A stretch of 49,253 bases of DNA from an uncultured Clostridia bacterium (GCA_904373255.1 CAJFFD010000001.1:1-49253); one strand, 5' to 3'; counted from the first letter of the stretch, positions 1,742 through 46,956 are shown. Numbers and translations: made by a program. Notes: generated by a model not told the origin, from the sequence alone.

Positions 1742-4249
1742 ATGGCGAAATATTATTCGGATGTTATCGCGATGAAGGACAGGATCGGAAGGCTGAAAGA
1801 TAATCTTTATAAAAAGATGCCGGAGATCGAGTCTTCGAGGGCGAAACTTATTACCGAATCATATAAAATGACGGAAGGAGAGCCGATCGTTACGCGGCGA
1901 GCAAAGGCCTTCCTGCATATCCTGCAGAATATCCCCATCATTATCCGCGATGAGGAGCTGATCGTAGGGAGTACTACGCTTGCTCCGCGCGGCTGCCAGA
2001 CTTATCCGGAATTTTCTTATGAATGGCTGGAAGCGGAGTTTGACACCGTTGCAACGCGTAAGGCAGACCCCTTTTATATTTCAGAGGAAGCAAAAAAAGA
2101 AATCGCGGAAGCGGATAAGTATTGGAAGGGGAAAACGACGAGCGAATTAGCGACTGCGTATATGGCTCCCGAGGCAATCCGTGCGATCGATCATAATATG
2201 TTCACGCCCGGCAACTATTTTTATAACGGCGTCGGGCATGTCACCGTGCATTACGATTGGGTTCTTGCGGTCGGGTTCAAAGGAATTGCCGCAAAGGCGA
2301 AAAAAGCTCTTGATGCGCTGAACTTCGGCGACGCCGAATATGCGCGCCGTTCGCACTTCCTGAATGCGGTGATCATGAGCTGCGAAGCGGCGATCATCTA
2401 TGCAAAGAGATATGCGGCGCTGGCGCGGGAAATGGCGGCGAAGGAGTCGAATTCCCGGCGCAAAGCGGAACTGCTCCGCATCGCAGATAACTGCGAGAAC
2501 GTTCCCGAAAACGGAGCGCGCGATTTCTGGGAGGCGTGCCAGTCCTTCTGGTTCGTGCAGCAGCTGTTGCAGATCGAGTCGAGCGGGCACTCCATTTCGC
2601 CCGGCAGGTTCGACCAGTACATGTATCCTTATTATTGTAAGGATATAGAGAGCGGCAAGATCACCCGCGAATTTGCGCAGGAACTCATCGACTGCATTTG
2701 GATAAAACTCAACGACCTGAATAAGTGCCGCGACGCGGCGAGCGCGGAGGGTTTTGCCGGATACAGCTTGTTCCAGAACCTGATCGTCGGCGGGCAGAAC
2801 GCGGAAGGGGTGGATGTTACGAACGACCTTTCGTTCATGTGTATCACTGCATCGCTGCATGTGCAGCTGCCGCAGCCTTCCCTGTCCATCCGCGTATGGA
2901 ACAACAGCCCGCACGACCTTTTGATTCATGCGGCGACTCTGACGCGTACCGGCGTAGGCTTGCCTGCCTATTACAACGACGAGGTGATTATCCCTTCGCT
3001 GATGAGCAGAGGACTCACCTTGGAGGATGCGCGCGAGTACAACATTATCGGCTGCGTCGAGCCGCAGAAGGCTGGTAAGACGGAAGGCTGGCACGATGCG
3101 GCGTTCTTTAACATGTGCCGCCCGCTCGAACTCGTATTTTCGGACGGTATGGACAAGGGCGAGCTTGTCGGCGTGCATACCGGCGACGTGACCAAGTTCA
3201 AGACCTTCGACGAGTTCTACGACGCATATAAGAAACAGATGAATTACGCGATCTCCCTGCTCGTCAATGCGGACAATGCCATCGACGTGGCGCACGCGAC
3301 GCTGTGTCCGCTCCCGTTCCTTTCGGGAATGATCGAGGACTGCATCGGGCGCGGCAAATCTGTGCAGGAGGGCGGCGCGATCTACAACTTTACGGGGCCG
3401 CAGGGCTTCGGCATCGCCAACATGGCGGATTCCCTCTATGCAATCAAGACGCTCGTATTCGATAAGAAGGAAGTTACCCTCGCCGAGTATAAGCAGGCGT
3501 TGGAAGACAATTACGGCAAGGGGCTGGACGCGGAGAAGACGCAGAAGGTCGTCGCCGAAGTCGTAAGAGAACTGTCCGCCTCGGGCAGGAAGGTTTCCGA
3601 AGAGGAGATCGCCGCGGCTGTCGGCTCACTCGTGAACGGTTCGGATAAATACGACAAATTGTTGGAAAAGATCGACGCTGTGCCGAAGTACGGCAATGAT
3701 ATCCCCGAAGTGGATGCCTTCGCGCGCGACGTTGAATATACCTATGCGAAGCCGTTGGAAACATATAAAAACCCGCGCGGCGGCATGTTCCAGGCGGGAA
3801 TGTATCCCGTTTCGGCAAACGTGCCGTTGGGCGCACAGACGGGGGCTACTCCCGACGGTAGGCTGGCTGGCAAGCCGGTCGCGGACGGCGTTTCTCCTTC
3901 CGCCGGCAAGGACGTGCATGGCCCGACCGCTGCGGCGAATTCGGTTGCGCGGCTGGATCATTACATTGCGTCCAACGGTACGCTGTTCAACCAAAAATTC
4001 CATCCTTCTGCATTGAGCGGCAGACAGGGGCTGGAAAATTTCGTGGCGCTCATCCGTTCCTATTTTGACCAGAAGGGCAGCCATATGCAGTTCAACGTAG
4101 TATCCAGGGAAACCCTTTTGGACGCGCAGAAATATCCCGAAAAATATAAGCACCTCGTCGTCCGCGTTGCGGGATACAGCGCTTTCTTTACGACGCTGTC
4201 GAGGAGTTTGCAGGACGATATCATCAACCGCACCGAGCAGGGAATGTAA
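1742..4249 (+). CDS. glycyl radical enzyme, B12-independent diol (propanediol) dehydratase type
   Basis: active-site Cys motif NIIGCVEPQKAGKTEGWHDAAFFN; glycyl radical motif RVAGYSAFF near the C-terminus; next to an activase and BMC genes. Confidence 0.92.
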   Translation: MAKYYSDVIAMKDRIGRLKDNLYKKMPEIESSRAKLITESYKMTEGEPIVTRRAKAFLHILQNIPIIIRDEELIVGSTTLAPRGCQTYPEFSYEWLEAEFDTVATRKADPFYISEEAKKEIAEADKYWKGKTTSELATAYMAPEAIRAIDHNMFTPGNYFYNGVGHVTVHYDWVLAVGFKGIAAKAKKALDALNFGDAEYARRSHFLNAVIMSCEAAIIYAKRYAALAREMAAKESNSRRKAELLRIADNCENVPENGARDFWEACQSFWFVQQLLQIESSGHSISPGRFDQYMYPYYCKDIESGKITREFAQELIDCIWIKLNDLNKCRDAASAEGFAGYSLFQNLIVGGQNAEGVDVTNDLSFMCITASLHVQLPQPSLSIRVWNNSPHDLLIHAATLTRTGVGLPAYYNDEVIIPSLMSRGLTLEDAREYNIIGCVEPQKAGKTEGWHDAAFFNMCRPLELVFSDGMDKGELVGVHTGDVTKFKTFDEFYDAYKKQMNYAISLLVNADNAIDVAHATLCPLPFLSGMIEDCIGRGKSVQEGGAIYNFTGPQGFGIANMADSLYAIKTLVFDKKEVTLAEYKQALEDNYGKGLDAEKTQKVVAEVVRELSASGRKVSEEEIAAAVGSLVNGSDKYDKLLEKIDAVPKYGNDIPEVDAFARDVEYTYAKPLETYKNPRGGMFQAGMYPVSANVPLGAQTGATPDGRLAGKPVADGVSPSAGKDVHGPTAAANSVARLDHYIASNGTLFNQKFHPSALSGRQGLENFVALIRSYFDQKGSHMQFNVVSRETLLDAQKYPEKYKHLVVRVAGYSAFFTTLSRSLQDDIINRTEQGM

Positions 4250-4251
4250 TT

Positions 4252-5049
4252 ATGGCGGAAAATTATTTAGACACAAAGGGCAGGATCTTCGATATACAAA
4301 GATTCTCCATTCACGATGGAAAGGGGATACGAACCATCGTTTTTTTGAAGGGGTGCGTTCTTCGCTGCAAATGGTGCTGCAATCCCGAGTCGCAGGAATA
4401 TAAAATCCAGACGATGCTTGTGCAGGGCAAACCGAAAACAATCGGCGAAGACGTTACCGCCCGCGAGGTTTTGGAAGTCGTTGAGAAGGACAGACCGTAC
4501 TACAGACGCAGCGGCGGCGGACTTACGCTTTCGGGCGGAGAGAGTCTTTGTCAGCCGGACTTTTGCGAAGCGCTGCTGCGCGGGGCAAAGGAGCGGGGGC
4601 TGCGTACTGCATTGGAAAGCATGGCGTGCGCGGATTATAAAGTCATAGAACGCATGTTGCCCTATCTCGACCAGTATTTGATGGATATAAAGCATACCGA
4701 CCCGTTGAAGCATAAGGAGTTTACGGGCAGAAGCAACGAACTGATGCTGGAAAATGCAAAAAAAGTTGCGGCGAGCGGAATGACGGAATTGATCATCCGC
4801 GTGCCGGTCATCCCGACATTCAATGCGACGGAAAGGGAGATCGAGGGTATTGCGAAGTTTGCGGCGTCGCTTCCCGGCGTGAAAAAGCTGCATCTCCTTC
4901 CTTACCATCGGTTGGGGCAGGACAAATATGAGGGGCTTGGGCGAGATTACGAGATGAAGCACATCGTTCCGCCGTCGAGCGACACGATGAATAAACTTCT
5001 TGCGGCGGCGAAGGCTGTGTCCGGTTTGGATTGCCAGATAGGAGGCTGA
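4252..5049 (+). CDS. glycyl-radical-enzyme activating enzyme (radical SAM)
   Basis: CVLRCKWC (CX3CX2C), GGGLTLSGGE; directly downstream of the GRE. Confidence 0.92.
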   Translation: MAENYLDTKGRIFDIQRFSIHDGKGIRTIVFLKGCVLRCKWCCNPESQEYKIQTMLVQGKPKTIGEDVTAREVLEVVEKDRPYYRRSGGGLTLSGGESLCQPDFCEALLRGAKERGLRTALESMACADYKVIERMLPYLDQYLMDIKHTDPLKHKEFTGRSNELMLENAKKVAASGMTELIIRVPVIPTFNATEREIEGIAKFAASLPGVKKLHLLPYHRLGQDKYEGLGRDYEMKHIVPPSSDTMNKLLAAAKAVSGLDCQIGG

Positions 5050-5050: not shown

Positions 5051-5431
5051 ATGGACGTAAATGATTTGATCAGCGATAAGAGCGGAAAAATGCGCATCGT
5101 GCAGGAACTCGTTCCCGGCAAGCAGATCACGCTGGCGCATATCATCGCCAATCCGGACAAAGTTCTGTATCAGAAACTCGGCTTGAACCCGGCGGTGGAT
5201 TACAGTCAGTCGGCTATCGGCATCGTGACGGTCAGTCCGGCGGAAACGGCGATCATCCTCGGCGATATTTCCATTAAATCGTCGGGCGTGGATCTCGGGT
5301 TTGTCGACCGCTTCAGCGGCACGCTGATCGTGACGGGCACGGTCTCTCAGGTGGAAGCGGCGCTCGATGCACTCATTAAATACAGTTCGGAAGTGCTCGG
5401 CGTCAGTTGCTGCGCCATAACAAAGACTTGA
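5051..5431 (+). CDS. BMC shell protein, EutS/PduU-like (circularly permuted BMC-H)
   Basis: VQELVPGKQITLAHIIANP...AIGIVTVSPAETAIILGDISIKSSGVDLGFVDRFSGTLIVTG. Confidence 0.9.
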   Translation: MDVNDLISDKSGKMRIVQELVPGKQITLAHIIANPDKVLYQKLGLNPAVDYSQSAIGIVTVSPAETAIILGDISIKSSGVDLGFVDRFSGTLIVTGTVSQVEAALDALIKYSSEVLGVSCCAITKT

Positions 5432-5435: not shown

Positions 5436-5942
5436 ATGCGTAAAATTGTTCTGATGGGCAGGAGCGGCGCGGGAAAAACGACGCTCACACAAGCGCTTCG
5501 CGGCGAAAAGCTGACGTATCATAAAACGCAGTATGTCAATTTTCAAGGCGCGCTCATCGATACCCCGGGCGAATATGTGGAAACAAAGAGACTCGGATAT
5601 GCGCTTGCGCTGTACGCTTACGAAGCGGATGTGGTGGGGTTGCTCCTTTCTGCAACGGAACCCTTCTCCCTGTATCCGCCGAATGTGACCTGTATGGTCA
5701 ATCGCGAGGTCGTGGGTATCGTTACAAAGACGGACGATCCTTCGGGCGACCCGCAGCAGGCTGCCGCATGGCTGAAACTCGCCGGGTGCGGAAAGATATT
5801 TTTTGTGTCTTCCGTGTCGGGGGAGGGCATCGCCGATATTTTTGAATATCTGCGGGAGCCGAATGATGTGCTTCCGTGGGATAAAACCAAACAAAAACAA
5901 CAAAAACAACAAAATCAAAGCAGTTTTCAAAAAAATATTTGA
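5436..5942 (+). CDS. EutP/PduV-like P-loop GTPase
   Basis: GRSGAGKTTL, DTPGEY, TKTD; location within the BMC operon. Confidence 0.88.
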   Translation: MRKIVLMGRSGAGKTTLTQALRGEKLTYHKTQYVNFQGALIDTPGEYVETKRLGYALALYAYEADVVGLLLSATEPFSLYPPNVTCMVNREVVGIVTKTDDPSGDPQQAAAWLKLAGCGKIFFVSSVSGEGIADIFEYLREPNDVLPWDKTKQKQQKQQNQSSFQKNI

Positions 5943-6017: not shown

Positions 6018-6815
6018 ATGGTCAACGAGTACGAGATCAAAAAAGAGATCTGTGATATCGGTAAGCGCATCTACAATCGCGGGATGGTTGCGTCGAATGA
6101 CGGCAACATTTCCGTGAAGCTGAACGATCACGAATTCCTCTGCACCCCGACGGGTGTCAGCAAAGGGTTCATGACGCCCGAATTTATCTGCAAAGTTGAC
6201 GAAAACGGTAACGTTTTGCAGGCGAACAAAGGGTTCAAGCCTTCTTCCGAAATCAAGATGCATATGCGCGTCTATAAGGAAAGACCCGACGTCAATTCGG
6301 TCGTGCATGCGCACCCGATGTACGCCACCTCCTTTGCGATTGCGGGTATTCCGCTGACGCAGCCGATCATGCCCGAAGCGGTTATTGCGCTGGGATGTGT
6401 TCCCATCGCGGAATACGGTACGCCCTCCACAAACGAAATCCCGGATGCAGTTTCGAAGTATCTGCAGCATTTTGATGCTGTGCTTTTGGCGAACCACGGC
6501 GCGCTGGCTTATTCCGATTCTTTGCTGAACGCTTATCATAAGATGGAGTCGGTTGAGTTCTATGCGCAGCTTCTGTTCCTTTCCAAGCAGCTCGGCGGCC
6601 CGAAGGAACTGTCCAAAGAGCAGGTCGAAAGGCTGTATGAAATTCGCCGTAAGTTCGGTATGAAGGGTAAACATCCTGCCGATCTTTGCCCGAATGCGAA
6701 AGAGGGCAAGCCCAGCTGCCATTCCTGCGGCGGTTGCTCGTCCGGCAAGAGCGCAAGCGATGCCGATTTGGTTTCGGAAATCACGAAAAAGGTCATGAAG
6801 GAACTCGGTCTTTGA
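6018..6815 (+). CDS. class II aldolase (fuculose/rhamnulose-1-phosphate aldolase-like) with C-terminal encapsulation-peptide-like helix
   Basis: VVHAHPMYATSFAIAG, NHGAL; C-terminal DADLVSEITKKVMKELGL amphipathic helix after a Cys-rich linker. Confidence 0.88.
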   Translation: MVNEYEIKKEICDIGKRIYNRGMVASNDGNISVKLNDHEFLCTPTGVSKGFMTPEFICKVDENGNVLQANKGFKPSSEIKMHMRVYKERPDVNSVVHAHPMYATSFAIAGIPLTQPIMPEAVIALGCVPIAEYGTPSTNEIPDAVSKYLQHFDAVLLANHGALAYSDSLLNAYHKMESVEFYAQLLFLSKQLGGPKELSKEQVERLYEIRRKFGMKGKHPADLCPNAKEGKPSCHSCGGCSSGKSASDADLVSEITKKVMKELGL

Positions 6816-6816
6816 T

Positions 6817-7320
6817 ATGGACGAGCGGGCAATTGCAGCCGCGGTTGAAAAAATTGTACGCGGCTTAAAACCCGAGGGGGAGCATTCCTGTAAATGTAGC
6901 GCCTTTAAGCTGACGTTGGATAAGGCAAAGAGGCTGTGCGAAGCAGTCGAAGCGCGGGCAAAGGAAATGGGCGTCAAGGCTGTCGTCGCGGTTGCGGACA
7001 ACGGCGGAAATCCGGTTGCCGTACAGTCGATGGACGGGGCGTATCTCGCAAGTTGGGATATAGCCTTGCAGAAGTCGTATACCGTAGTTGCCTTGAAGAT
7101 GTCCACAAAGGAGCTCGCTGCTTTGGCGGCACCCGGTGCGCCTCTCTACGGCATACAGTTTACGAACCAGGGTAAGATCGTCATTTTCGGCGGTGGAGAA
7201 CCTTTGGTTGCCGGCGGCAAGATCGTCGGAGGATTGGGTGTCAGCGGCGGTACGGCTGAACAGGATACTGCACTTGCCGCTTACGGCAGAGATCGATTTA
7301 AGGAGATGACGGAATGTTGA
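6817..7320 (+). CDS. GlcG/HbpS/PduO-C-like protein with N-terminal encapsulation-peptide-like helix
   Basis: ALDKAK...AVVAVADNGGNPVAVQSMDGAYLASWDIALQKSYTVVALKM; N-terminal ERAIAAAVEKIVRGL. Confidence 0.82.
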   Translation: MDERAIAAAVEKIVRGLKPEGEHSCKCSAFKLTLDKAKRLCEAVEARAKEMGVKAVVAVADNGGNPVAVQSMDGAYLASWDIALQKSYTVVALKMSTKELAALAAPGAPLYGIQFTNQGKIVIFGGGEPLVAGGKIVGGLGVSGGTAEQDTALAAYGRDRFKEMTEC

Positions 7321-8699
7321 ACGAGCAGGCAGTTCAGGAGATTGTAAAAGAAGTCGTCGCAAAACTGAATCTCGGTACAGAAACAGAAACGGGCATGGGG
7401 ATTTTCACCGACATGAATGAGGCGATCGCGGCAGCAAAAAAGGCGCAGGCGATCCTTCACAGGATGTCGATGGATCAGCGGGAAAAGATTATTTCTTCAA
7501 TCCGTAAAAAGACATTGGAGAATGCCGAAACATTGGCGCGCATGGCGGTCGATGAAACGGGCATGGGCAATGTCGGGCATAAAATTTTAAAACACAGGCT
7601 TGTTGCGGAAAAAACGCCGGGAACAGAGGATATTACGACGACTGCTTGGTCTGGTGACCGCGGACTCACTCTTATCGAGATGGGGCCGTTCGGGGTGATC
7701 GGGGCGATTACGCCTTGCACAAACCCGAGTGAAACAGTCATTTGCAACAGCATAGGCATGATTGCGGGCGGCAACACGGTTGTGTTCAACGCGCATCCTG
7801 CAGCGATCAAAACTTCGAATTATGCTGTCAGGATGATCAACGAAGCGTGCGTCGAAGCGGGCGGGCCGGAAAATGTGGCTTGTTCCCTCGTCAAGCCGAC
7901 GATGGAATCGAGCGCGATCATGATGAAGCATAAAGATATACAGCTGATCGCAGCGACCGGCGGCCCGGGTGTCGTTACGGCAGTTCTTTCCTCCGGGAAA
8001 CGCGGCATCGGCGCAGGCGCGGGAAATCCTCCCGCTCTTGTCGATGAAACGGCGGATATACGCAAAGCAGCAGAGGACATTGTAAACGGTTGCACGTTCG
8101 ACAATAATCTTCCCTGCATTGCGGAAAAAGAAGTGGTGGCTGTCGATTCGATTGCCGATGAGCTGATGAATTACATGCTCACGGAGCAGGGGTGCTACCT
8201 TGCCAGCAAGGAGGAGCAGGAAAAACTTATTGCCACGGTTCTTACGCCGAAGGGGTTGAACCGCAAATGCGTCGGAAGGAGTGCAAAGGTGCTCCTCGGC
8301 ATGACCGGCGTGGAAGTTCCCGACAGCATTCGCTGCATCATTTTTGAGGGCGAAAAAGAACATCCGCTTATTTCGACGGAATTGATGATGCCGATCCTCG
8401 GTATTGTCCGCGCCAAAGATTTTGACGACGCGGTGGAAAAAGCGGTGTGGCTGGAACATGGCAATCGCCATTCCGCGCATATTCATTCCAAAAACGTTGA
8501 CAACATAACGAAATACGCAAAGGCGATCGACACGGCGATTCTCGTGAAAAACGGGCCGTCTTATGCGGCAATCGGATTCGGCGGCGAAGGGTTCTGCACT
8601 TTTACGATTGCGAGCAGAACGGGCGAGGGACTTACCTCGGCGGCAACCTTCACCAAGCGCCGCAGGTGCGTAATGAGCGACAGCCTGTGCATTCGTTGA
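7314..8699 (+). CDS. CoA-acylating aldehyde dehydrogenase (PduP/EutE-like)
   Basis: ITPCTNPSETVICN, TGGPGVV, GAGAGNPPALVDETAD, FDNNLPCIAEKEV; N-terminal QAVQEIVKEVVAKL helix. Confidence 0.93.
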   Translation: MLNEQAVQEIVKEVVAKLNLGTETETGMGIFTDMNEAIAAAKKAQAILHRMSMDQREKIISSIRKKTLENAETLARMAVDETGMGNVGHKILKHRLVAEKTPGTEDITTTAWSGDRGLTLIEMGPFGVIGAITPCTNPSETVICNSIGMIAGGNTVVFNAHPAAIKTSNYAVRMINEACVEAGGPENVACSLVKPTMESSAIMMKHKDIQLIAATGGPGVVTAVLSSGKRGIGAGAGNPPALVDETADIRKAAEDIVNGCTFDNNLPCIAEKEVVAVDSIADELMNYMLTEQGCYLASKEEQEKLIATVLTPKGLNRKCVGRSAKVLLGMTGVEVPDSIRCIIFEGEKEHPLISTELMMPILGIVRAKDFDDAVEKAVWLEHGNRHSAHIHSKNVDNITKYAKAIDTAILVKNGPSYAAIGFGGEGFCTFTIASRTGEGLTSAATFTKRRRCVMSDSLCIR

Positions 8700-8711: not shown

Positions 8712-9929
8712 ATGGACATGGATACAAGCAACAAAAATATTGAAGAAATTGTCCGCAGGGTGCTTGAAAATATGACGGGCGGAGCGAAGGCTTCTGCGCC
8801 TGCGGCAGCTTCTTCCGGGGCGGCTCTCCCCAAAACGGCGCGCGTTGCCATGCTGGTGGAGAAAGAAAAATATGAAATTAAAGAATATCCGCTTCCCGAA
8901 GTCGGAGACAACGATATTCTCGTGAAGGTCGAAGGCTGCGGCATCTGCGGTACCGATGCGCATGAATTCAAGCGCGACCCGTTCAATTTGATCCCGGTCG
9001 TTTTGGGACACGAAGGAACGGGTGAAATCGTGAAAATGGGCAAGAATGTCAAAAAGGACAGCGCCGGCAAAGATCTGCACCTCGGGGATAAAGTCGTCAC
9101 CTGCATGATCTTTAAAGACAATCCCGACATCACGATGTTCGACCTCAACAAGCAGAATGTGGGCGGGGCAGACGTATACGGTCTTCTCCCCGACGACGAT
9201 ATTCACTTTAACGGTTGGTTCTCCGATTATTTGCTCGTCCGCGGCGGCAGCACGATTTTCAATGTCAGCGACTTGGATTTATATTCGAGAATTCTGATAG
9301 AACCGTGCGCTGTTTTGGTGCATGCTGTGGAGCGCGCAAAAACGACGGGTATCCTCCGTTTCAACAGCAGAGTGGTCGTGCAGGGCTGCGGGCCGATCGG
9401 TCTGATCTGCATTGCCGTTTTGCGCACGATGGGCATTGAAAATATAACTGCGGTGGACGGGGAAGAAAAGCGCCTTGCGTTTGCCAAAGAAATGGGCGCC
9501 GATAAGACGGTGAATTTCAAAGAATACAAGGGTATCGAAAACCTTGCAAAGGCTGTGGAAGATACTTTTGGCGGTCATCTTGCCGATTTTGCATTCCAAT
9601 GCACCGGTTCGCCCGTGGCTCATTCCAACATTTATAAATTTATCCGTAGCGGCGGCGGGTTGTGCGAACTGGGATTCTTCATCAACGGCGGCGACGCTAC
9701 GATTAACCCGCACTTTGACATTTGCGCGAAAGAGATCACAACGGTCGGGTCTTGGGTATATACCCTCCGCGATTATGCGACGACTTTTGATTTTCTGAAA
9801 AGAGCAAAGGGCATCGGGCTTCCTATGGATAAACTGATCACGCATACCTTCCCGCTTGAAGAGATCAACGAAGCGCACAGAACAAATCTGCGCATGGAAG
9901 GTCTGAAGATCGCCATTATCAATAAGTAA
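8712..9929 (+). CDS. zinc-dependent alcohol dehydrogenase (medium-chain, threonine/sorbitol-DH-like) with N-terminal encapsulation-peptide-like helix
   Basis: GCGICGTDAHEF, GHEGTGEIV, VVQGCGPIGL; N-terminal NIEEIVRRVLENM followed by an Ala/Pro/Ser linker. Confidence 0.88.
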   Translation: MDMDTSNKNIEEIVRRVLENMTGGAKASAPAAASSGAALPKTARVAMLVEKEKYEIKEYPLPEVGDNDILVKVEGCGICGTDAHEFKRDPFNLIPVVLGHEGTGEIVKMGKNVKKDSAGKDLHLGDKVVTCMIFKDNPDITMFDLNKQNVGGADVYGLLPDDDIHFNGWFSDYLLVRGGSTIFNVSDLDLYSRILIEPCAVLVHAVERAKTTGILRFNSRVVVQGCGPIGLICIAVLRTMGIENITAVDGEEKRLAFAKEMGADKTVNFKEYKGIENLAKAVEDTFGGHLADFAFQCTGSPVAHSNIYKFIRSGGGLCELGFFINGGDATINPHFDICAKEITTVGSWVYTLRDYATTFDFLKRAKGIGLPMDKLITHTFPLEEINEAHRTNLRMEGLKIAIINK

Positions 9930-9939: not shown

Positions 9940-10254
9940 ATGGCAAAGGCAGTCGGGATCATCGAAGTTTTTGGTTTGGCTTGCGCGTTTGTCGCTTCGG
10001 ACGCAGGTTGCAAAGCGGCGGACGTGACCGTCGAAAATTTTGATAAAAATAAACCAGCGAACGCGGACAAATTACCCGTGCCGTTGATCGTTTGCATTAA
10101 ATTCCGCGGGGATGTTGCCGCGGTAGAAGCAGCGATCGAGGCAGCGGCGGCGGCGGCGGAAAAATTAACGGGAGTCGTCAGCAAGTACGTTATCGCGAAC
10201 CCCGAAGACGGCACGCAGAAGATGTTGAAGCTCAACGCCTTCGACAAAAATTAA
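9940..10254 (+). CDS. BMC-H shell protein with extended pore-loop region
   Basis: AVGIIEVFGLACAFVASDAGCKAADV...GDVAAVEAAIEAA...SKYVIANP. Confidence 0.88.
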   Translation: MAKAVGIIEVFGLACAFVASDAGCKAADVTVENFDKNKPANADKLPVPLIVCIKFRGDVAAVEAAIEAAAAAAEKLTGVVSKYVIANPEDGTQKMLKLNAFDKN

Positions 10255-10292
10255 GAAAATTCATCGGATAACTTTTAGGAGGATATATAGTT

Positions 10293-10568
10293 ATGGCTAA
10301 GGAAGCATTGGGAATGATCGAAACCAGAGGTCTGGTTGCAGCGATCGAAGCGGCAGATGCCATGGTCAAAGCGGCTGAAGTTACGCTGATCGGCACCGAG
10401 AAGATCGGTAGCGGGTTGGTGAGCGTCATGGTTCGCGGCGACGTCGGCGCTGTAAACGCAGCTGTCGAAGCGGGCGCAACGAACGCATCCAGGCTCGGCG
10501 AATTGGTCGCGAAGCACGTCATTCCCCGCCCTCATGCAGACGTTGAAAAAATACTCCCTAAACTGTAA
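10293..10568 (+). CDS. BMC-H shell protein (PduA/J-like)
   Basis: [26 protein letters not shown]...[25 protein letters not shown]...KHVIPRPH. Confidence 0.95.
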
Positions 10569-10593
10569 TTGTCTGGGTTAGCCGGAGGACATA

Positions 10594-10917
10594 ATGGAAA
10601 AATCACTCGGTTTTATCGAAATATCCGGCGTAACGGCGGCGATAGATGCGCTCGACATCATGTGTAAAACAGCGGATGTCGAATTGGTTACATGGGAAAG
10701 GAAACTCGGCGGCCGATTGGTAACGCTTATCGTAAAAGGCTCGGTATCGGCTGTTACGGAGGCTGTCGAAGCGGCGGCGGCGCATGCGATCAAAAAACCG
10801 GTCGCCAAAGCCGTAATTGCAAATCCGCACCCTGAAACGGAGCGGCTTGTAGCGCTTTCCGCTTCGCGCCTTGCAAAGAAAAACGGCAAGGATGTGCCGA
10901 TGGTACACGATACCTGA
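10594..10917 (+). CDS. BMC-H shell protein with C-terminal extension
   Basis: SLGFIEISGVTAAIDALDIMCKTADVELVTWERKLGGRLVTLIVKG. Confidence 0.9.
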   Translation: MEKSLGFIEISGVTAAIDALDIMCKTADVELVTWERKLGGRLVTLIVKGSVSAVTEAVEAAAAHAIKKPVAKAVIANPHPETERLVALSASRLAKKNGKDVPMVHDT

Positions 10918-10993
10918 TACAACGGTAGTTCGGGCGTTGACGCCCAAAATACAAATAAAAATTGTCAAATATCTCTAAAGGAGGAGAAACAAA

Positions 10994-11275
10994 ATGTCTT
11001 TGGAAGCATTGGGAATGATCGAAACGAGAGGTTTGGTTGCCGCTATCGAGGCTGCCGATGCCATGCTCAAAGCTGCAAACGTTACGCTGATCGGCACCGA
11101 GAAGATCGGTAGCGGGTTGGTGAGCGTCATGGTTCGCGGCGATGTCGGCGCGGTCAATGCGGCTGTCGAAGCGGGCGCTACGAATGCGTCTAAACTCGGC
11201 GAATTGGTTGCGAAGCACGTCATTCCTCGCCCTCATTCTGATGTTGAAAAGATCCTTCCTACGCTCAACAAGTAA
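10994..11275 (+). CDS. BMC-H shell protein (PduA/J-like), paralogue of 10293..10568
   Basis: near-identical protein to the BMC-H at 10293. Confidence 0.95.
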
Positions 11276-11477: not shown

Positions 11478-12122
11478 ATGGTTGAAGAAAAGACGGTCGA
11501 ATTGATAACAAAGCTTGTGTTGAAATCGTTGGAAGAGCAACAGGAATCCGGGAGTGGTTTTTTGGTGCCCGTCGGCGTATCGGCAAGGCATGTACACCTC
11601 ACCCAAGAAGATGTGGAAACGCTGTTTGGCCCCGGGCATACGCTGCATAAGAAAAAGGAGCTGATGGGCGGTCAGTTTGCGGCGGAGGAGTGCGTGACGA
11701 TCGTCGGATTGAAGCTCCGAGCCATTGAAAATGTGCGTGTTTTAGGCCCTTGCAGAAAAAAATCGCAGGTAGAAATATCCGCAACCGACGCGCTGAAGCT
11801 CGGTGTCAAAGCGCCGATCCGCGAATCCGGCAACATTGCAGGAAGCGCTCCGATCGCGTTAGTGGGGCCGCGGGGCGCCATTTATATGAAGGAAGGCTGC
11901 ATCATCGCAAAACGCCACATTCATATGTCGCGCAAGGATGCCGAAGCGGCCGGCGTAAAGGATGGTGACGTTGTGTCCGTGCGTGCGGATAATGAACGCG
12001 GGACAATATTCAATCATGTGCAAATCCGCGTTGACGATAGTTTTACGTTGGAAATGCACATTGATACGGACGAGGCGAACGCCGCCAAGATTTCGACAGG
12101 AATGACTGTCAGGATCATTTGA
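11478..12122 (+). CDS. pduL: phosphate propanoyltransferase PduL-like, N-terminal encapsulation-peptide-like helix
   Basis: VPVGVSARHVHLTQEDVETLFG, HIHMSRKDAEAAGVKDGDVVSV; N-terminal VELITKLVLKSLEEQ. Confidence 0.93.
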   Translation: MVEEKTVELITKLVLKSLEEQQESGSGFLVPVGVSARHVHLTQEDVETLFGPGHTLHKKKELMGGQFAAEECVTIVGLKLRAIENVRVLGPCRKKSQVEISATDALKLGVKAPIRESGNIAGSAPIALVGPRGAIYMKEGCIIAKRHIHMSRKDAEAAGVKDGDVVSVRADNERGTIFNHVQIRVDDSFTLEMHIDTDEANAAKISTGMTVRII

Positions 12123-12137: not shown

Positions 12138-12401
12138 ATGATTATCGGAAAGGTTATCGGCAGCGTAGTTTCGACACGGAAATGTGACAATCTTGTCGGA
12201 AATAAATTTATGATCGTCGAGCCGATTCCCAGTTTGAAAGTTTCGCACAGGATCGTGGCGATCGATAAAATCGGCGCCGGCATCGGTGAATTTGTATTGG
12301 TGGCGCAGGGTAGTGCCGCCAGGATCGGTTGCGGAATGGATACGGCTCCCGTTGATGCGGCGATCGTGGGTATTCTTGACGAAGGACAAAATTTGGAGTA
12401 A
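12138..12401 (+). CDS. EutN/CcmL-family BMC-P vertex protein
   Basis: MIIGKVIGSVVSTRK...LVGNKFMIVEP...DKIGAGIGEFVLVAQGSAAR...VDAAIVGILD. Confidence 0.93.
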   Translation: MIIGKVIGSVVSTRKCDNLVGNKFMIVEPIPSLKVSHRIVAIDKIGAGIGEFVLVAQGSAARIGCGMDTAPVDAAIVGILDEGQNLE

Positions 12402-12410: not shown

Positions 12411-13742
12411 ATGGAGATAAAAGAACTGGCCGACATTTTGCAACGGAACGGCGTTGTCGGCGCCGGCGGTGCCGGGTTTCCTACATATGCAAAGTTGGAT
12501 AAACGCGCCGAAACAATCATTATGAACTGCGCGGAGTGTGAGCCTTTGCTCAAATTGCACCGTCAGTTATTGGAAAAGCATGCGGATGAGATCGTGTCCG
12601 TATTCCACCTGATCATGGAAACGGTGGGGGCGAAAGAGGCGATCATCGGCATTAAAAAGGCATATAAAAAGACTATTGAAGCCTTGAAAGGTGTTATACC
12701 GCAGTATCCGGGGGTAAGACTCGGACTTTTGGACGAGGTATATCCTGCAGGCGACGAAGTCGTTTTGATATACGAAGTTACGGGCAAAGTCGTCCGCCCC
12801 GGCGGGCTGCCCATTGAGAGCGGCGTCATTGTATTCAATGTCGAAACGCTCTACAACCTTTACCGCGCGCTGCATAAGCAGGAGCCGGTAGTGGATAAAC
12901 TTGTCAGCGTGGTTGCGGAAGTTAATTCGCCTGTTACGGTCAGGATGCCTCTCGGTGCAACGGTTGAAGAGGCGGTAGCGTTGGCGGGCGGCGCACGAAT
13001 CAAAAATCCCGTTTATTTCGTGGGCGGGCCCATGATGGGGAATATCATGCCGGGTACCGCGCCGATTACAAAGACGACGAATGCGATCCTCGTTCTTCCG
13101 GAAAACCATTATTTGGTGCAGCGTAAGCGTGCCAATACAGAGGTTATGCTCAAACGCGCGGCGGCGAGCTGCTGCCAATGCAGCATGTGTACGGATTTAT
13201 GCCCGCGTCATTTGTTGGGGCATCCCATCCAACCGCATCTGTTTATGCGCGCGGCGACCTGTAAGGATGTTCAGGATCCGAATATTTTTCTCGATACATT
13301 TTTCTGCTGTTCCTGCGGACTTTGCGAATTGTATTCCTGTTTCCAGGGTCTTTCGCCCCGCACTTTGATGGCGGAGTATAAAAACGGACTTCGCGCTGCA
13401 GGAATAAAAGCTCCGCAGGTACAGGCAGCGCCCGTTTCCCCTGCAAGGGAATTCCGTAAAGCGCCGATGAAGCGTTTGATGGCGCGGCTGGATTTGGCGA
13501 AGTACGATGTTTCCGCGCCGTTGCAGGACGAATGTGTCGCGGTCGGAAGCGTAAAAATACCCCTGCGCCAGCATATCGGCGCTCCGGCGGTTGCCGCGGT
13601 CAAAGCCGGCGATATGGTTGAGCGCGGGCAGGTCATCGCGGCTCCCGCAAGCGGTTTAAGCGTTGCAATCCATGCTTCCATATCGGGGCGTGTGCGTTCG
13701 GCGGATGCAAATTTCATTATAATCGATAAGGCAGAGAGGTAA
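12411..13742 (+). CDS. PduS/RnfC-like ferredoxin-type electron transfer protein
   Basis: GVVGAGGAGFPTYAKL, MNCAECEPLL, CCQCSMCTDLCPRHLLGHPIQPH and FFCCSCGLCELYSC motifs. Confidence 0.92.
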   Translation: MEIKELADILQRNGVVGAGGAGFPTYAKLDKRAETIIMNCAECEPLLKLHRQLLEKHADEIVSVFHLIMETVGAKEAIIGIKKAYKKTIEALKGVIPQYPGVRLGLLDEVYPAGDEVVLIYEVTGKVVRPGGLPIESGVIVFNVETLYNLYRALHKQEPVVDKLVSVVAEVNSPVTVRMPLGATVEEAVALAGGARIKNPVYFVGGPMMGNIMPGTAPITKTTNAILVLPENHYLVQRKRANTEVMLKRAAASCCQCSMCTDLCPRHLLGHPIQPHLFMRAATCKDVQDPNIFLDTFFCCSCGLCELYSCFQGLSPRTLMAEYKNGLRAAGIKAPQVQAAPVSPAREFRKAPMKRLMARLDLAKYDVSAPLQDECVAVGSVKIPLRQHIGAPAVAAVKAGDMVERGQVIAAPASGLSVAIHASISGRVRSADANFIIIDKAER

Positions 13743-13745: not shown

Positions 13746-14294
13746 ATGAGCAGAGCAATCGGAATGGCGGAATTCAAAACAGTATCTGCCGGCATGACTG
13801 CGGCCGATACTATGGTAAAAACCGCGGATGTGGATATTATTGAGGCGGAAACTGTCTGCCCCGGGAAGTATATCGTTATTATCACGGGCGAGCTGTCCGC
13901 GGTGAATGCTTCGGTTGAGGCGGCAAAAACAGTGCATTCGATGCATCTGATCGATTCTTTTGTCCTCGGCAATCCCGCAGACGAAATTTTCCCAGCGATT
14001 TATGGTGCCTCGAAGGTCGAAATCGTCAATTCACTGGGCATCATCGAGACGTACGACGCAGCTGCGATCATCGTTGCCGCTGATCAGGCAGCAAAGACTG
14101 CCGAAGTTTCGTTAATTGAGATCAGGCTTGCGCGCGGAATGTGCGGTAAGAGCTATCTTTTGATTACCGGCGAAGTCGCTGCGGTAGAAGCGGCGATTGC
14201 GCGCGCTCAAAAAGCGGTTGAACCGCGCGGAATGTATCTGGATAGTTCCGTAATTGCACGGCCCGATAAGAAACTGATCGATCAGATTTTATAA
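13746..14294 (+). CDS. BMC-T trimeric shell protein, PduT-like
   Basis: two tandem BMC domains; TVCPGK with Cys at residue 38. Confidence 0.92.
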   Translation: MSRAIGMAEFKTVSAGMTAADTMVKTADVDIIEAETVCPGKYIVIITGELSAVNASVEAAKTVHSMHLIDSFVLGNPADEIFPAIYGASKVEIVNSLGIIETYDAAAIIVAADQAAKTAEVSLIEIRLARGMCGKSYLLITGEVAAVEAAIARAQKAVEPRGMYLDSSVIARPDKKLIDQIL

Positions 14295-14375: not shown

Positions 14376-15155
14376 ATGTTCGCAATCGAGAGAAGAAATG
14401 CAATCCTCGCCGCGCTGAAGGAAGAAAAGCACGTCGTGGTCAGCGAACTTGCCAAACAATTTGATGTTTCGGAAGAAACCATCCGACGCGATCTTGATAA
14501 GCTTGAAAAAGAAGGATACGTCGTGAAAACTTACGGCGGAGCCGTTATCAGCGAAGGCGCGGCAATCGAGCTGCCGTATGTAGTGCGCAAGAAGGCAAAT
14601 GTCGAAGCAAAACAGAAGATCGCAGAGCTTGCCGCCGAACTGATCATGGATGGAGACACGCTGATTTTAGACGCAAGCTCTACAGCGCTCTTTATCGCGC
14701 AAAAAATAAAGACAAAAAAGGACATTACGCTTTTGACAAACTCGTTGGAGGTTCTGATGGAACTTTCCGATGTCACGGGTTGGAAAATACTTTCCACGGG
14801 CGGGTCGCTGAAAGAGCGGTCGTGCGCGCTGATCGGAAGCCAGGCAGAGGAGTGCTTGGAGCGCTTTCATGTTGATAAAGCATTTATTTCCTGTAAGGGC
14901 GTAGACGCGGAGCACGGTTTTTCCGACAGCAGCGATGCGCATGCGGCTGTCAAACGAAAGATGATTGCGGCGGCGTCGCAGGTATTTTTTGCGGTAGATT
15001 CTTCTAAATTCGGAAAACTTTCCTTCACATCGATCAGCGGTTTTTCGGGCGTCGACGCCGTAATCACGGAAAACTGCCCGAACGAAGACTGGAACAGGCT
15101 TTTCATCACAAACGACATCGAGTGCATTTATCCGAGAGGTAACGGAAATGGCTGA
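14376..15155 (+). CDS. DeoR/GlpR-family transcriptional regulator
   Basis: RRNAILAALKEEKHVVVSELAKQFDVSEETIRRDLDKLEKEGYVVKTYGGAV; start chosen after RBS AAAGGGGAAAG. Confidence 0.92.
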   Translation: MFAIERRNAILAALKEEKHVVVSELAKQFDVSEETIRRDLDKLEKEGYVVKTYGGAVISEGAAIELPYVVRKKANVEAKQKIAELAAELIMDGDTLILDASSTALFIAQKIKTKKDITLLTNSLEVLMELSDVTGWKILSTGGSLKERSCALIGSQAEECLERFHVDKAFISCKGVDAEHGFSDSSDAHAAVKRKMIAAASQVFFAVDSSKFGKLSFTSISGFSGVDAVITENCPNEDWNRLFITNDIECIYPRGNGNG

Positions 15156-15933
15156 AACGCGCGTTATCTGTTTTGCAAACAATAAAGGCGGAAGCGGAAA
15201 GTCCACGACTTGTTCAAACGTCGGCTATTTTATGGCGTCGGAAGGCAAAAAAGTTTTGCTGATCGACGGGGATATGCAATTGAATTTGTCCCTCGCGTAT
15301 TTTGACGAGGAAAAAGTTCTTTCTCTTGCCGCAGGAGACAAAAATCTGTACTGCGCAATCAGAAAGCAGGACGATTTGACGGATTATGTGCTGCCGACGG
15401 AATATGAAAATTTGGATATAGTCCCTTCGTCTACGCTGATGAGTTCTATTGAATTTGAGTTGTTTTCCAAGTGGCAGAGAGAATACGTTCTGAAGAAATG
15501 TTTGCAAAAATTGAAGGAGTCCGGCAAGTACGATTATATTTTGATCGATTCTCCGCCCACGCTCGGCGGTTGGGTCATGAATATTTTGGCTGCGTCGGAC
15601 TATCTGGTCGTTCCGGTCGAAGCAAGCCCGTGGGGATTATTCGGATTGTCGAATTTGTTTGAATTTTTATCCGAGGCAAAAGGTGTGGCTCCCGATTTAA
15701 AAATAGCGGGTATTGCTGTAACCAAAGTAGACGGAAGAAAAAATTACTTCAAGCAGACGATGGAGACATTAAAGGAACTTCCCGCGCGCGTTTTTGGCAC
15801 GCAAATTCATCTTGACAGCAATATTGAATGGGCGCAGGACAACAGTAAACCGGTCGGGAAGTATAAGAGAAGTTCAAGAAGTAGTAAAGAATACAGCGAA
15901 TTAACCAAGGAGGTCATCGAGGTATGCCGATAG
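15148..15933 (+). CDS. ParA/MinD-family ATPase (candidate BMC positioning ATPase)
   Basis: NKGGSGKST deviant Walker A, VLLIDGDMQLNLSLA (Walker A'), YDYILIDSPPTLGG (Walker B), basic C-terminal stretch GKYKRSSRSSK. Confidence 0.9.
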   Translation: MAETRVICFANNKGGSGKSTTCSNVGYFMASEGKKVLLIDGDMQLNLSLAYFDEEKVLSLAAGDKNLYCAIRKQDDLTDYVLPTEYENLDIVPSSTLMSSIEFELFSKWQREYVLKKCLQKLKESGKYDYILIDSPPTLGGWVMNILAASDYLVVPVEASPWGLFGLSNLFEFLSEAKGVAPDLKIAGIAVTKVDGRKNYFKQTMETLKELPARVFGTQIHLDSNIEWAQDNSKPVGKYKRSSRSSKEYSELTKEVIEVCR

Positions 15934-16406
15934 GAAATGCAAGCATCAAACGCGCTACGGGCGCGATCGAAAAAACCGGCGAAAAGAGCAAGAAAAATTT
16001 GTTCCGTGCGGAAACCGTTCTTTCTGAAATAGAGATCGATACGATTAAAGGAGTTTTGGACGGGGCGGCGCCGGCAGAGCTGATCAGGTCTATTAAAAAA
16101 TACGGAGTGCTTCATCCGGTTTTTGTCCTCCGTGACGGAGAGTCTTTTACTTTGCTGTCAGGGAAGAAGCGGATTCAGGCGGCAAAGGCTGCCGGATTGA
16201 CGGCGATCAAGGCGCTGGTTCTTACGCTGGAGGGGAGCGGTGCGCAAGCTGCAAAAAAGGATGCGGCGTTGCGTTTCTGCAGCGCGGAATTAGGTTCGGA
16301 AATTGCCGTTGCGGCGGAGCAAAAGGAATCCGTTTCGAATATCCATGAAGAAAAATTTAATGCAATCCGCAGCATCGGCAGCGATCTTCCCGATTATTTG
16401 CTTTAA
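15924..16406 (+). CDS. ParB/sulfiredoxin-fold-like small protein, candidate partner of the ParA-like ATPase
   Basis: AELIRSIKKYGVLHPVFVLRDGESFTLLSGKKRIQAAKAAGLTAIKALVL resembles the ParB N-domain; no recognisable HTH; 160 aa. Confidence 0.75.
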   Translation: MPIGNASIKRATGAIEKTGEKSKKNLFRAETVLSEIEIDTIKGVLDGAAPAELIRSIKKYGVLHPVFVLRDGESFTLLSGKKRIQAAKAAGLTAIKALVLTLEGSGAQAAKKDAALRFCSAELGSEIAVAAEQKESVSNIHEEKFNAIRSIGSDLPDYLL

Positions 16407-16430: not shown

Positions 16431-17576
16431 ATGAAGAGTTTCGACATAAAAACAAAAATATATTTCGGTGACAATGCGATCGGGCGCTTAAAGGAAATTC
16501 CGTATAAGCGTGTCCTGATCATAACGGATAAATTCTTTTCGGGCAACGAACTTTTACGGCTTGTGACGCAGCCGTTAGCGGAAACAGGCAAGGAATATCG
16601 GGTATTTAACGATGTTGTTCCCGATCCCCCGGTGGAAAAAATTGTAGGGGGAGTGAAGGTTGTTCTCGACTACAAGCCGGACTGCCTTATTGCAATCGGC
16701 GGAGGCTCCGTAATTGATTCGGCGAAGGCGATCCGCGAATTTTCCGTTAAGATGGATGAAAGCGAAAAAATTGCCTTGATCGCCATTCCTACGACGAGCG
16801 GCACCGGTTCAGAAGTGACCGCGTTTTCCGTGATCACCGATTCGGTTCATCATATCAAATATCCGCTCGTATCGGAGAGCATGTTGCCCGAAGAGGCGAT
16901 TTTGGACGAGGAATTCGTCAAAAGCGTTCCGCCCAATGTTACGGCGGATACGGGCATGGACGTTCTCACTCACGCAGTGGAAGCATACACGAGCATCAAC
17001 AACAACGAATTTTCTGCCGCCTTGGCGGAAAAGGCAATCGAGATATGCGGCGCATTTTTGCTTCGAGCCTATCTCGACGGCAACGATTGGCATGCGCGCC
17101 GCAAGATGCATGTTGCGTCCTGTTTGGCTGGTTTGGCTTTCAATTCGGCGTCGCTCGGTTTGAATCACGGAATGGCGCATCAGCTTGGTGCAAATTTCCA
17201 TATTCCGCACGGGCGCGCAAATGCAATGTTACTTCCTCACATCATCGAGTACAATAGCGGAATCAATATACATTCCCGCAGTCAAAAAGAGTATCCGAAG
17301 CAGGTGGAAAAATATGTTTCCATTGCGCGGTTGTTGGGGTTGCAGAACTTTAATACGATTACGACTGTACGCGCTTTCGTCAACTGGGTGCAGTTCATGG
17401 ATAAAGAAATGAATATACCGCTGTCCGTCTCGCAGATCGGAAATATAACGGAGAGCGAATACCGTTCTAAAATCCCTGCAATGGCGGAAGCTGCGCTCGC
17501 AGACGGATGCACGGCAACAAATCCGAAAGTTCCTACCAAGGCTGATATTATCAATATTTACGAAAATCTTTGGTAA
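16431..17576 (+). CDS. iron-containing alcohol dehydrogenase (PduQ/EutG-like)
   Basis: IGGGSVIDSAKAI, PTTSGTGSEVTAFSVI, LNHGMAHQLGANFHIPHGRANAMLLPHIIEYN. Confidence 0.92.
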   Translation: MKSFDIKTKIYFGDNAIGRLKEIPYKRVLIITDKFFSGNELLRLVTQPLAETGKEYRVFNDVVPDPPVEKIVGGVKVVLDYKPDCLIAIGGGSVIDSAKAIREFSVKMDESEKIALIAIPTTSGTGSEVTAFSVITDSVHHIKYPLVSESMLPEEAILDEEFVKSVPPNVTADTGMDVLTHAVEAYTSINNNEFSAALAEKAIEICGAFLLRAYLDGNDWHARRKMHVASCLAGLAFNSASLGLNHGMAHQLGANFHIPHGRANAMLLPHIIEYNSGINIHSRSQKEYPKQVEKYVSIARLLGLQNFNTITTVRAFVNWVQFMDKEMNIPLSVSQIGNITESEYRSKIPAMAEAALADGCTATNPKVPTKADIINIYENLW

Positions 17577-25029: not shown

Positions 25030-26907
25030 ATGATGCAGGTAGAGTTTCCGTTATATGTGTTTCATCACGGCAAAAATTTTAAGGCGTATGAATTTTTTGG
25101 CGCTCATCCGTACCGTCAGGACGGAAAAAAGGGATATATTTTCCGCGTATGGGCTCCGCATGCGAAGGCTGTTTCCGTGGTGGGGGATTTTAACGGCTGG
25201 GATCCGGACGCAAATCCGATGGACGAGCTGTTGGACGGAGAGACTTACGAGCTTTTTATCCCCGGGATGAAAGAGTTTTCCGTATACAAATATTGCATCC
25301 GCACGGAGGACGGGCGTTTTTTATATAAGGCGGATCCGTACGCTTTTCATGCGGAAACCCCGTCAAAAACGGCATCCAAAACATTCGATCTGGAGGGTTA
25401 TCGTTGGGCGGACAAAGAATATATGAAAAAACGCCGTTCAGCGAATATTTATTCCTCCCCGATGAATATCTATGAAATGAACGCGCTTTCCTGGAGGCAA
25501 TATGCGGACGGAAATTACTTCAACTTTGACAAGCTGACGGAAGATCTGATCCCTTATCTCAAGGAAATGGGGTATACGCATGTCGAATTCATGCCCCTGT
25601 GCGAATATCCTTACGACGGTTCGTGGGGATACCAGGTGACGGGGTATTATGCAATTACGTCGCGCCTGGGTACGCCGCACGACTTTATGCGCTTGGTCGA
25701 CGCCTGCCACAGGAACGGGATCGGTGTCATTATGGACTGGGTGCCGGCGCATTTCCCCAAGGATGCGCACGGACTGTATGAATTTGACGGGCAGCCGCTC
25801 TACGAAAGCCCTGCATGGGATCGGCAGGAGCATAAAAGCTGGGGTACGCGCAGGTTTGATTACGGGCGCAGCGAAGTGCTTTCCTTCCTGATTTCGAATG
25901 CGATCTTCTTTTTTGATAAATTTCATATAGACGGGCTTCGCGTGGATGCGGTCGCTTCCATGCTGTATCTCGACTATGATAAAAAGCCGGGCGAGTGGCT
26001 GCCGAATAAATACGGTGAAAATAAAAACCTGGAGGCGATCGAGTTCCTGCAGCGGCTCAATGCAAGCGTATTTTCGGAATATCCTGACGCGCTGATGATT
26101 GCGGAGGAGTCGACGGCGTGGCCTCTCGTCACAAAACCGGTGGATATAGGCGGCTTGGGATTTAACTTTAAGTGGAATATGGGGTGGATGAACGACGTGC
26201 TTGATTATATGCAGACCGACCCGTATTTCCGCAAGGGCAACCACAATAAGCTTACGTTTTCCATGATGTATGCTTTTACCGAAAATTATGTGCTGCCCAT
26301 TTCGCACGATGAAGTAGTGTACGGCAAACATTCGCTGATCGATAAAATGCCCGGAAATTATGAAGATAAGTTTGCAAATGTGCGTGCGTTTATGGGATTT
26401 ATGATGTCTCATCCCGGGAAAAAATTGCTGTTCATGGGATGTGAATACGGGCAGTTCAAGGAGTGGAATTATAAAGAAGGGCTGGAATTTTTCCTTAAGG
26501 AATATCCGCTGCACCAAAAACTTTCGGATATGAATGCGGCGTTGAACAAATTTTACAGGGAAACGCCCGCCTTCTATGAGATCGAGGATTCGTGGGACGG
26601 GTTTGAATGGATTGCGCCCAACGATGCGGACAGAAATATTCTTGCTTACATGAGAAAAGACAGAGCGGGCAACGAATACCTCGTCGTCATCAATTTTGCG
26701 GGAGCAAAGGCGGACGGATACCGTTTGGGAGTTCCGAAAGGGAAATACAAGATCGTATTCAATACCGACAGTCCGAAGTTCGGCGGCGCGGGGGAAATGA
26801 CAAAACGCATATTCAATACGGAGAGGAAGCACAGCCACGGCAAGGAATATTCTATAAAAATCGAGCTTCCTAAACTGACGTGCGTATATCTGCAAAAAAT
26901 TCTCTGA
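25030..26907 (+). CDS. glgB: 1,4-alpha-glucan branching enzyme
   Basis: VWAPHAKAVSVVGDFNGWD, HVEFMPLCEYPYDGSWGYQVTGYYA, GLRVDAVASMLYLDY, AEESTAWP, PISHDEVVYGK. Confidence 0.95.
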   Translation: MMQVEFPLYVFHHGKNFKAYEFFGAHPYRQDGKKGYIFRVWAPHAKAVSVVGDFNGWDPDANPMDELLDGETYELFIPGMKEFSVYKYCIRTEDGRFLYKADPYAFHAETPSKTASKTFDLEGYRWADKEYMKKRRSANIYSSPMNIYEMNALSWRQYADGNYFNFDKLTEDLIPYLKEMGYTHVEFMPLCEYPYDGSWGYQVTGYYAITSRLGTPHDFMRLVDACHRNGIGVIMDWVPAHFPKDAHGLYEFDGQPLYESPAWDRQEHKSWGTRRFDYGRSEVLSFLISNAIFFFDKFHIDGLRVDAVASMLYLDYDKKPGEWLPNKYGENKNLEAIEFLQRLNASVFSEYPDALMIAEESTAWPLVTKPVDIGGLGFNFKWNMGWMNDVLDYMQTDPYFRKGNHNKLTFSMMYAFTENYVLPISHDEVVYGKHSLIDKMPGNYEDKFANVRAFMGFMMSHPGKKLLFMGCEYGQFKEWNYKEGLEFFLKEYPLHQKLSDMNAALNKFYRETPAFYEIEDSWDGFEWIAPNDADRNILAYMRKDRAGNEYLVVINFAGAKADGYRLGVPKGKYKIVFNTDSPKFGGAGEMTKRIFNTERKHSHGKEYSIKIELPKLTCVYLQKIL

Positions 26908-26967
26908 GCCGTCTGATACAGCGAAGGGAATAATCAATTATCAATTATATTTTAGTGGGGGTTTAAC

Positions 26968-28173: not shown

Positions 28174-28175
28174 TT

Positions 28176-29279: not shown

Positions 29280-29321
29280 CTTTTTGTACATAAAAAACGA
29301 TAAGGAGGTAACGGAGCGAGT

Positions 29322-30869: not shown

Positions 30870-30894
30870 TTTCAACTTAACGAGGAGAAGGGAC

Positions 30895-33330: not shown

Positions 33331-33337
33331 TAGTAGC

Positions 33338-46635: not shown

Positions 46636-46653
46636 CTTGCGCAGATGCGCAAG
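46636..46653. repeat. perfect palindrome CTTGCGCA-ga-TGCGCAAG
   Basis: 8-bp arms, 2-bp spacer. Confidence 0.8.
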
Positions 46654-46938: not shown

Positions 46939-46956
46939 GTTGCGAGGATGGTTCAA

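Follow-up and report, generated by a model that had tools for sequence, protein, structure and literature searches.

We found that a ParA-type ATPase gene and the small gene overlapping its 3′ end, located within a fucose/rhamnose-type glycyl-radical microcompartment (GRM5) locus, probably constitute an McdAB-like positioning system for the GRM5 metabolosome. The pair lies in a 49,253-nucleotide stretch of DNA from an uncultured Clostridia bacterium (GCA_904373255.1 CAJFFD010000001.1:1-49253; hereafter the window), with parA at 15148-15933 (261 aa) and the parB-like gene, which encodes a putative adaptor, at 15924-16406 (160 aa), both on the plus strand. In such a system, the ATP form of ParA would coat the nucleoid, the adaptor would dock on the microcompartment via its conserved C-terminus (acidic-[LM]P.YLL) and, through the M.hGK.S[IL].R peptide at its N-terminus, would stimulate ATP hydrolysis by ParA, such that microcompartments would follow the ParA gradient and thereby be spaced out and passed on at division. 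Between its two ends the adaptor would have a spacer, formed by a ParB-N fold in the window's genus and by a Lys/Ala-rich, probably disordered linker in most relatives.

Judged by gene content, the surroundings of the pair are a complete GRM5-type (fucose/rhamnose, glycyl-radical) microcompartment (BMC) locus, with all of the following genes on the plus strand. It includes a glycyl radical enzyme and its activase (1742-5049; PFL-like and Gly_radical domains, radical SAM), the enzyme being assigned to the propanediol dehydratase type by locus context, an EutS-like BMC-H (5051-5431) and an EutP/PduV-like GTPase (5436-5942; PduV-EutP, 3.4e-49). These precede a class II (fuculose-phosphate type) aldolase, an HbpS/DUF336-like protein and an acylating aldehyde dehydrogenase (6018-8699), and the GRM5 signature gene, a lactaldehyde reductase (Zn-ADH) with an encapsulation-peptide-like N-terminal extension (8712-9929). 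Four BMC-H shell genes (at 9940, 10293, 10594 and 10994, within 9940-11275) were identified by NCBIfam BMC models (9940, 10293), Pfam BMC (10594) and PF00936 matches in their own contig. They are followed by a PduL phosphate propanoyltransferase (11478-12122; PTAC, 4e-77), a BMC-P vertex protein of the EutN/CcmL type (12138-12401; EutN_CcmL, 4.3e-29), a PduS/RnfC-like iron-sulfur oxidoreductase (12411-13742), a PduT-type tandem BMC shell protein (13746-14294; BMC, 1.9e-45; eut_PduT, 2.6e-34) and a deoR-family regulator (14376-15155; DeoRC, 2.6e-51; HTH_DeoR, 1.1e-17) that is syntenic across family loci. The shell set comprises five BMC-H, one BMC-P and one PduT-type BMC-T, and the presence of the glycyl radical enzyme and activase, class II aldolase, lactaldehyde reductase, PduT, PduS and DeoR fits GRM5, fucose/rhamnose type, as described in two published accounts (PMC4207490, PMC6325248). 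Overlaps of 8 nt between deoR and parA and 10 nt between parA and the adaptor gene join the pair to this operon, an AGGAGG ribosome-binding sequence lies shortly upstream of the adaptor gene, and an iron-containing alcohol dehydrogenase (Fe-ADH; 16431-17576; 7e-43) starts 24 nt past it. The EutP/PduV-like GTPase is a second candidate positioning NTPase within the locus; this protein type has also been proposed for BMC movement. Elsewhere in the window, a match to Rfam RF02440 (SpF59 sRNA, ldcC RNA) at 46630-46687 scores 53.4 bits and precedes an Orn/Lys/Arg decarboxylase gene (46909-48405) by about 220 bases, and a glycogen/starch-type cluster (branching enzyme, nucleotidyl transferase, starch synthase, phosphorylase and amylase) occupies 25030-35143.

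The ATPase is of the ParA/MinD type by Pfam (AAA_31, 2e-51; CbiA, 1.7e-20), with the deviant Walker A motif of ParA-type ATPases (NNKGGSGKST, with signature Lys13), Walker A′ D40/D42, Walker B D134 and a basic C-terminus (KYKRSSRSSKEY). KGGSGK, D40/D42 and D134 were invariant in 24 orthologs. Among PDB chains searched with phmmer, the best match was a ParA family protein (112 bits), with segregation protein 1wcv at 87 bits and McdA at 52 bits. In the 24-ortholog alignment an invariant Glu227 aligns with one of the two Soj DNA-binding arginines, which we take to be the R218 equivalent, and nucleoid binding by ParA is therefore not assured.

Pfam returned a single match for the adaptor, to ParB_N (3.1e-7, 30.8 bits against a cut-off of 26.3), covering residues 49-103 on profile positions 26-81 of 95, and detected neither an HTH nor any second domain in the 160 aa. 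The match stops short of the profile end, and neither the ENxQR box nor a C-terminal dimerisation domain was found. Searching with phmmer recovered ParB/Spo0J/Noc chains (best 1.5e-7). A model built from an alignment of 23 family adaptors (a further family locus, L056, has parA with no complete adaptor frame) reached a pLDDT of 73.6 and a pTM of 0.51, with the core at about 80-90 and the linker poorly predicted. Foldseek matched this model to ParB (7bnk, 4.6e-6) and PadC (6ryk, 8e-5), and also to sulfiredoxin, and hhalign aligned the adaptor profile to Spo0J of the same or related genomes at 98.3% (2.5e-14). The core (residues 50-103; 16071-16232), a ParB-N fold, is degenerate: the GERR box is replaced by GKKR in the window and by GAKR, GFAR and similar variants elsewhere in the alignment, the Glu and first Arg being absent in 23/23 sequences and the last Arg kept in 21/23. 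A DNA-binding ParB or Noc was rejected as the identity of the adaptor, given the missing HTH. The preliminary description had portrayed a ParA-type ATPase overlapping a 160-aa gene by 10 nt, the latter with a ParB N-domain-like core, GKKR in place of GERR and no HTH, placed between the shell operon with deoR and the Fe-ADH and away from plasmid functions; each of these points agrees with our results, and the peptides it quoted are present.

The best-conserved parts of the aligned adaptors are the two ends rather than the ParB core. Comparison of regions by pairwise identity gave 0.59 for residues 1-12, 0.42 for the core, 0.29 for the gapped linker (residues 104-139; 16233-16340; pLDDT <50 at 128-138), 0.64 for residues 140-160 and 0.76 for the last six, in proteins whose overall identity to the window's adaptor was 25-72% across family loci. 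Invariant positions were M1, G4, S7, R10, G61, P65, G80, K144, P156, L159 and L160, with Y158 nearly so. The N-terminal motif, M-x-[VIL]-G-K/N-x-S-[IL]-x-R-[AV] (15924-15959), is a proposed ParA-stimulating peptide. Its hGK.S[IL] portion resembles, by eye rather than statistics, the LG-R/K-GL motif through which Spo0J binds ParA, as given in a survey (PMC12704722); Spo0J proteins of the same or related genomes begin GLGRGL or GLGKGL. At the other end, a predicted helix (residues 140-150) and tail (IHEEKFNAIRSIGSDLPDYLL; 16341-16403) close the protein, and the P-x-aromatic-L-L tail, a feature absent from the preliminary description, is likely an organelle-docking element.

We then assessed conservation of the pair. 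Searching 398 genomes of the window's family with the adaptor gave many chromosomal ParB N-domains and a distinct group of short homologs that matched to the last residue. All 24 fetched family loci with a short homolog had deoR followed by parA (ParA identity to the window's 60-92%) in conserved order, and a PduT-type shell gene was located upstream in 23 of the 24, the remaining contig ending inside deoR. The order in the family is rnfC/pduS - pduT - deoR - parA - adaptor, with Fe-ADH next in the window's genus, and the 10-nt overlap of parA and adaptor recurs in most of the genus and in many family loci. Conservation across 24 loci, with the overlap shared by most of the genus, places the pair far beyond chance. 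Other family genera have a second GRM5-like locus (L147, L148, L149) with a different order (ack-aldolase-AldDH-reductase-shell-GRE-activase-eutS-eutP-parA-adaptor), in which parA and a short adaptor follow eutP and the enzymes are about 40-68% identical to those of the window.

Orthologous ParA genes occur in hundreds of Clostridia. A ParA profile scan of 84,980 species gave 463 relatives, and the best 80 of these 463 were, the window's family aside, mostly Lachnospiraceae such as Blautia, Mediterraneibacter, Robinsoniella and Diplocloster. A small gene of the form M/V.VGK.SI.R ... [LM]P.YLL lies directly 3′ of parA in most loci outside a Mediterraneibacter-type clade.

Co-occurrence with GRM5 was strict outside the family. 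In 42 genomes picked mainly from larger contigs, each had a single ParA ortholog (E about 1e-137 or better vs. about 1e-47 for Soj), and 42/42 carried BMC genes as well as the lactaldehyde reductase typical of GRM5, whose identity was about 75-88% overall and 75-84% in most. ParA was on a different contig from the BMC genes in many of these genomes; where the distance could be given, it was about 3-30 kb in several, 64-92 kb in four and >1 Mb in one. The preliminary description had set a microcompartment role against a pair found mostly away from BMC loci in relatives: by location this partly holds, the pair lying apart from the BMC locus in many Lachnospiraceae, but by co-occurrence it does not. 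Within the family sample, 52/251 genomes had ParA and 49 of the 52 also had the reductase, the three others (G314, G328, G338) being MAGs of 71-80% completeness, two with deoR beside parA. Fisher tests of ParA against the reductase gave p = 1e-44 if 3, and 1e-30 if 23, of the ParA-negative genomes are taken as reductase-positive, two counts that bound the table, and both p values are inflated by species relatedness (non-independent samples). Three genomes whose only match was a reductase relative without the N-terminal peptide (G001, G032, G167) had no such ParA. Of 391 evenly sampled Clostridia, 113 were BMC-positive and this ParA was present in 3, all BMC-positive; since only 3/113 BMC-positive genomes have it, the link is with GRM5 rather than with BMCs at large, and a tie to BMCs in general was rejected. 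The pair thereby shows the genomic association with BMCs expected of McdAB-like systems, and its assignment to the microcompartment in the preliminary description is supported by family synteny as well as by strict co-occurrence outside the family.

Two kinds of exception were apparent. Four genomes of the window's genus (G007, G012, G022, G031) have a GRM5 locus with deoR and no such ParA anywhere in the assembly, only Soj, which indicates that ParA is dispensable; in their loci (L140, L141, L142, L143) parA and the adaptor gene are missing after deoR, and these natural deletions are useful controls. In a clade of Mediterraneibacter, Faecalicatena, Ruminococcus faecis and An169, the adaptor gene is not immediately downstream of the ATPase gene as it is in the window; instead an AraC gene follows, commonly with rhamnulokinase and fucose-isomerase-like genes next. 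Loci of this type (L065, L084, L090, L099, L100 and similar) often have, within a few kb upstream, a BMC shell gene encoding two domains. No adaptor was found elsewhere in 14 Mediterraneibacter-type genomes by a strict N-motif DNA pattern requiring Ala at position 11, which recovered both positive controls and which divergent adaptors could escape.

The AraC-family gene of this adaptor-less clade, together with the 8-nt overlap of parA and deoR, would fit a ParA that controls expression of the pathway genes through DeoR or AraC, as a FleN-type antiactivator, with the adaptor linking it to the regulator or the BMC. We consider this unlikely, because the partner kept across most lineages is the adaptor and no regulator, because parA and the adaptor gene form a free-standing two-gene unit adjoining neither a DeoR nor an AraC regulator in Blautia and others, and because FleN is a weak match to the window's ParA.

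Adaptor variants were compared across 80 sequences. G4, R10, P at −5 and L at −1 were invariant in 80/80, which is partly by construction since the set was gathered in part using motifs; for frames adjacent to parA, position counts as independent evidence. The residue at −3, where an aromatic near the C-terminus is the published hallmark (PMC11321042), was Y in 69, W in 5, H in 4 and F in 2, with W in some family adaptors (MPIWLL, PYWLL), and acidic residues were mostly at −7 and −8. The ParB core was present in 26/80 and absent in 54/80. Core-bearing adaptors outside the window's family were three (L085, L111, L152), all passing the Pfam ParB_N cut-off. The core-less adaptors had Lys/Ala-rich linkers (~20% Ala and ~20% Lys, ~40% together) and a median net charge of +9, and the core-bearing group a median of +4. 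The ParB-derived core given in the preliminary description is upheld as a fold but is lacking in most relatives and is less conserved than the ends.

Linkers of this composition raise the alternative that tethering of the organelle to DNA is wholly or chiefly the work of the adaptor, in the manner of the histone-like PhaF and AlgP, with ParA only tuning the process. Two linkers tested (L066, L117) gave weak, below-cut-off matches to histone H1-like HC2, and granule precedents are covered in a review (PMC13052382). The window's adaptor, however, has a folded ParB-N core and belongs to the less charged group, and ParA is kept even where no adaptor was found, such that tethering of this kind seems to us improbable.

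The conserved tail pattern was acidic-[LM]P.YLL, and 30 of 1303 open frames around ParA loci ended in [LM]P.YLL; these 30 are taken to be the adaptors themselves. A conserved C-terminal helix beside BMC genes would also be expected of an assembly or cargo-loading factor, with the helix serving as an encapsulation peptide and the ATPase driving shell or core maturation. We regard this as highly improbable, since the strongest signal is in the final P-x-Y-L-L tail, many adaptors keep the tail only, and some GRM5 loci lack the pair altogether.

Clostridial plasmid-type ParA proteins match this ParA better (38-42%, 193-196 bits) than resident-type Soj does (30-36%, at most 147 bits), and the adaptor's ParB core scores 36-52 bits with Spo0J vs. 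18-31 bits with plasmid ParBs. The nearest non-BMC relatives of ParA found were in plasmid-annotated ParAB pairs of Peptoclostridium and Acetoanaerobium (L212 2264-4142, L213 2486-4190), whose ParBs read SGHNR where GERR is expected. The reading as a plasmid partition pair, domesticated or in decay and without a microcompartment role, although compatible with the ParA affinity and with a similar parA-parB overlap in one plasmid pair, is almost certainly incorrect and was rejected on the GRM5 co-occurrence in 42/42 genomes, the loss of HTH and GERR with strong conservation of both adaptor ends, and the finding of no adaptor relative among 72,556 plasmid records.

Returning to positioning as the preferred reading, the variants bear on how such an adaptor could arise. 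In two ParA trees, rooted on the long Soj branch and differing from each other, adaptors with a ParB core fell at several deep places, which only suggests that the core is ancestral and was then lost repeatedly. We tentatively propose, as a scenario we hold at somewhat less than even chance, that across Clostridia a dedicated ParA positions GRM5 metabolosomes and that the adaptor was built from a ParB whose GERR box was already gone; some lineages would have retained the fold as a spacer, and its repeated loss elsewhere would have left two short end motifs and a disordered linker, in effect a McdB-like adaptor. If true, a ParB-built adaptor would illustrate a route from ParB to organelle adaptors of the McdB type, and may explain the origin of McdB-like adaptors. 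The pair also offers a small system open to experiment in widespread gut bacteria, some of them culturable (Blautia, Robinsoniella), and its natural variants (ParB-core adaptor, linker-only adaptor, ParA with no adjacent adaptor, and GRM5 without the pair) could separate the adaptor parts that matter, the ends, from the middle.

In the sources as available to us, ParA-type positioning is demonstrated for carboxysomes, with suggestions only for metabolosomes. A 2014 paper noted ParA genes in the vicinity of BMC loci, with none in its ancillary gene list for GRM5 (PMC4207490), and the accessible text of a C. phytofermentans GRM5 study reports no ParA (PMC3557285). An McdAB-like class near BMC loci is already known in silico: putative pairs with a C-terminal aromatic have been described near GRM, PDU and EUT operons (PMC8262871, PMC11321042, PMC13052382), and the idea of a BMC-positioning adaptor in the preliminary description is accordingly not new in kind, putative McdB-like adaptors near GRM/PDU having been published. 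What we could not find described in the open-access literature, as far as its available text extends, are a ParB-fold adaptor and the strict GRM5 co-occurrence that includes unlinked pairs; the accessible part of a 2025 ParB-fold survey makes no mention of microcompartments (PMC12704722). According to PMC11321042, McdBs share only ~15% identity with one another, the final five residues of McdB-like proteins near PDU/GRM include a Y or F, and Synechococcus McdB W152Y retains near-wild-type function and still docks on carboxysomes, while no substitution restored positioning in Halothiobacillus McdB.

Compared with known systems, the PhaF/AlgP proteins share the Lys/Ala-rich linkers of the short adaptors but differ in that Pha tethers are without homology to ParA (PMC13052382). 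PadC of Myxococcus xanthus likewise has a ParB fold and links ParA to a scaffold, bactofilin; it is reported to bind CTP (PMC12704722), whereas the adaptor here has lost GERR and its proposed partner is a microcompartment. Spo0J and Noc of ParABS systems share the ParB-N domain, the N-terminal G-K/R motif and the parA-parB order, but the adaptor is without GERR, N-P-x-Q-P-R, ENxQR, HTH and the C-terminal dimerisation domain, and has an added C-terminal P.YLL tail and the linkage to BMCs. McdAB is matched in the ParA-type ATPase gene followed immediately by that of a small adaptor, in the BMC association, and in an adaptor with a charged N-terminus, a variable middle and a conserved aromatic in the last five residues with acidic neighbours. 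It differs in that the cargo here would be a GRM5 metabolosome, the adaptor aromatic is mostly Tyr with W in some, the window's ParA is nearer to ParA/Soj-type chains (112 and 87 bits) than to solved McdA (52 bits), and some adaptors, including that of the window, have a ParB-N fold that goes unmentioned for McdB in the available sources.
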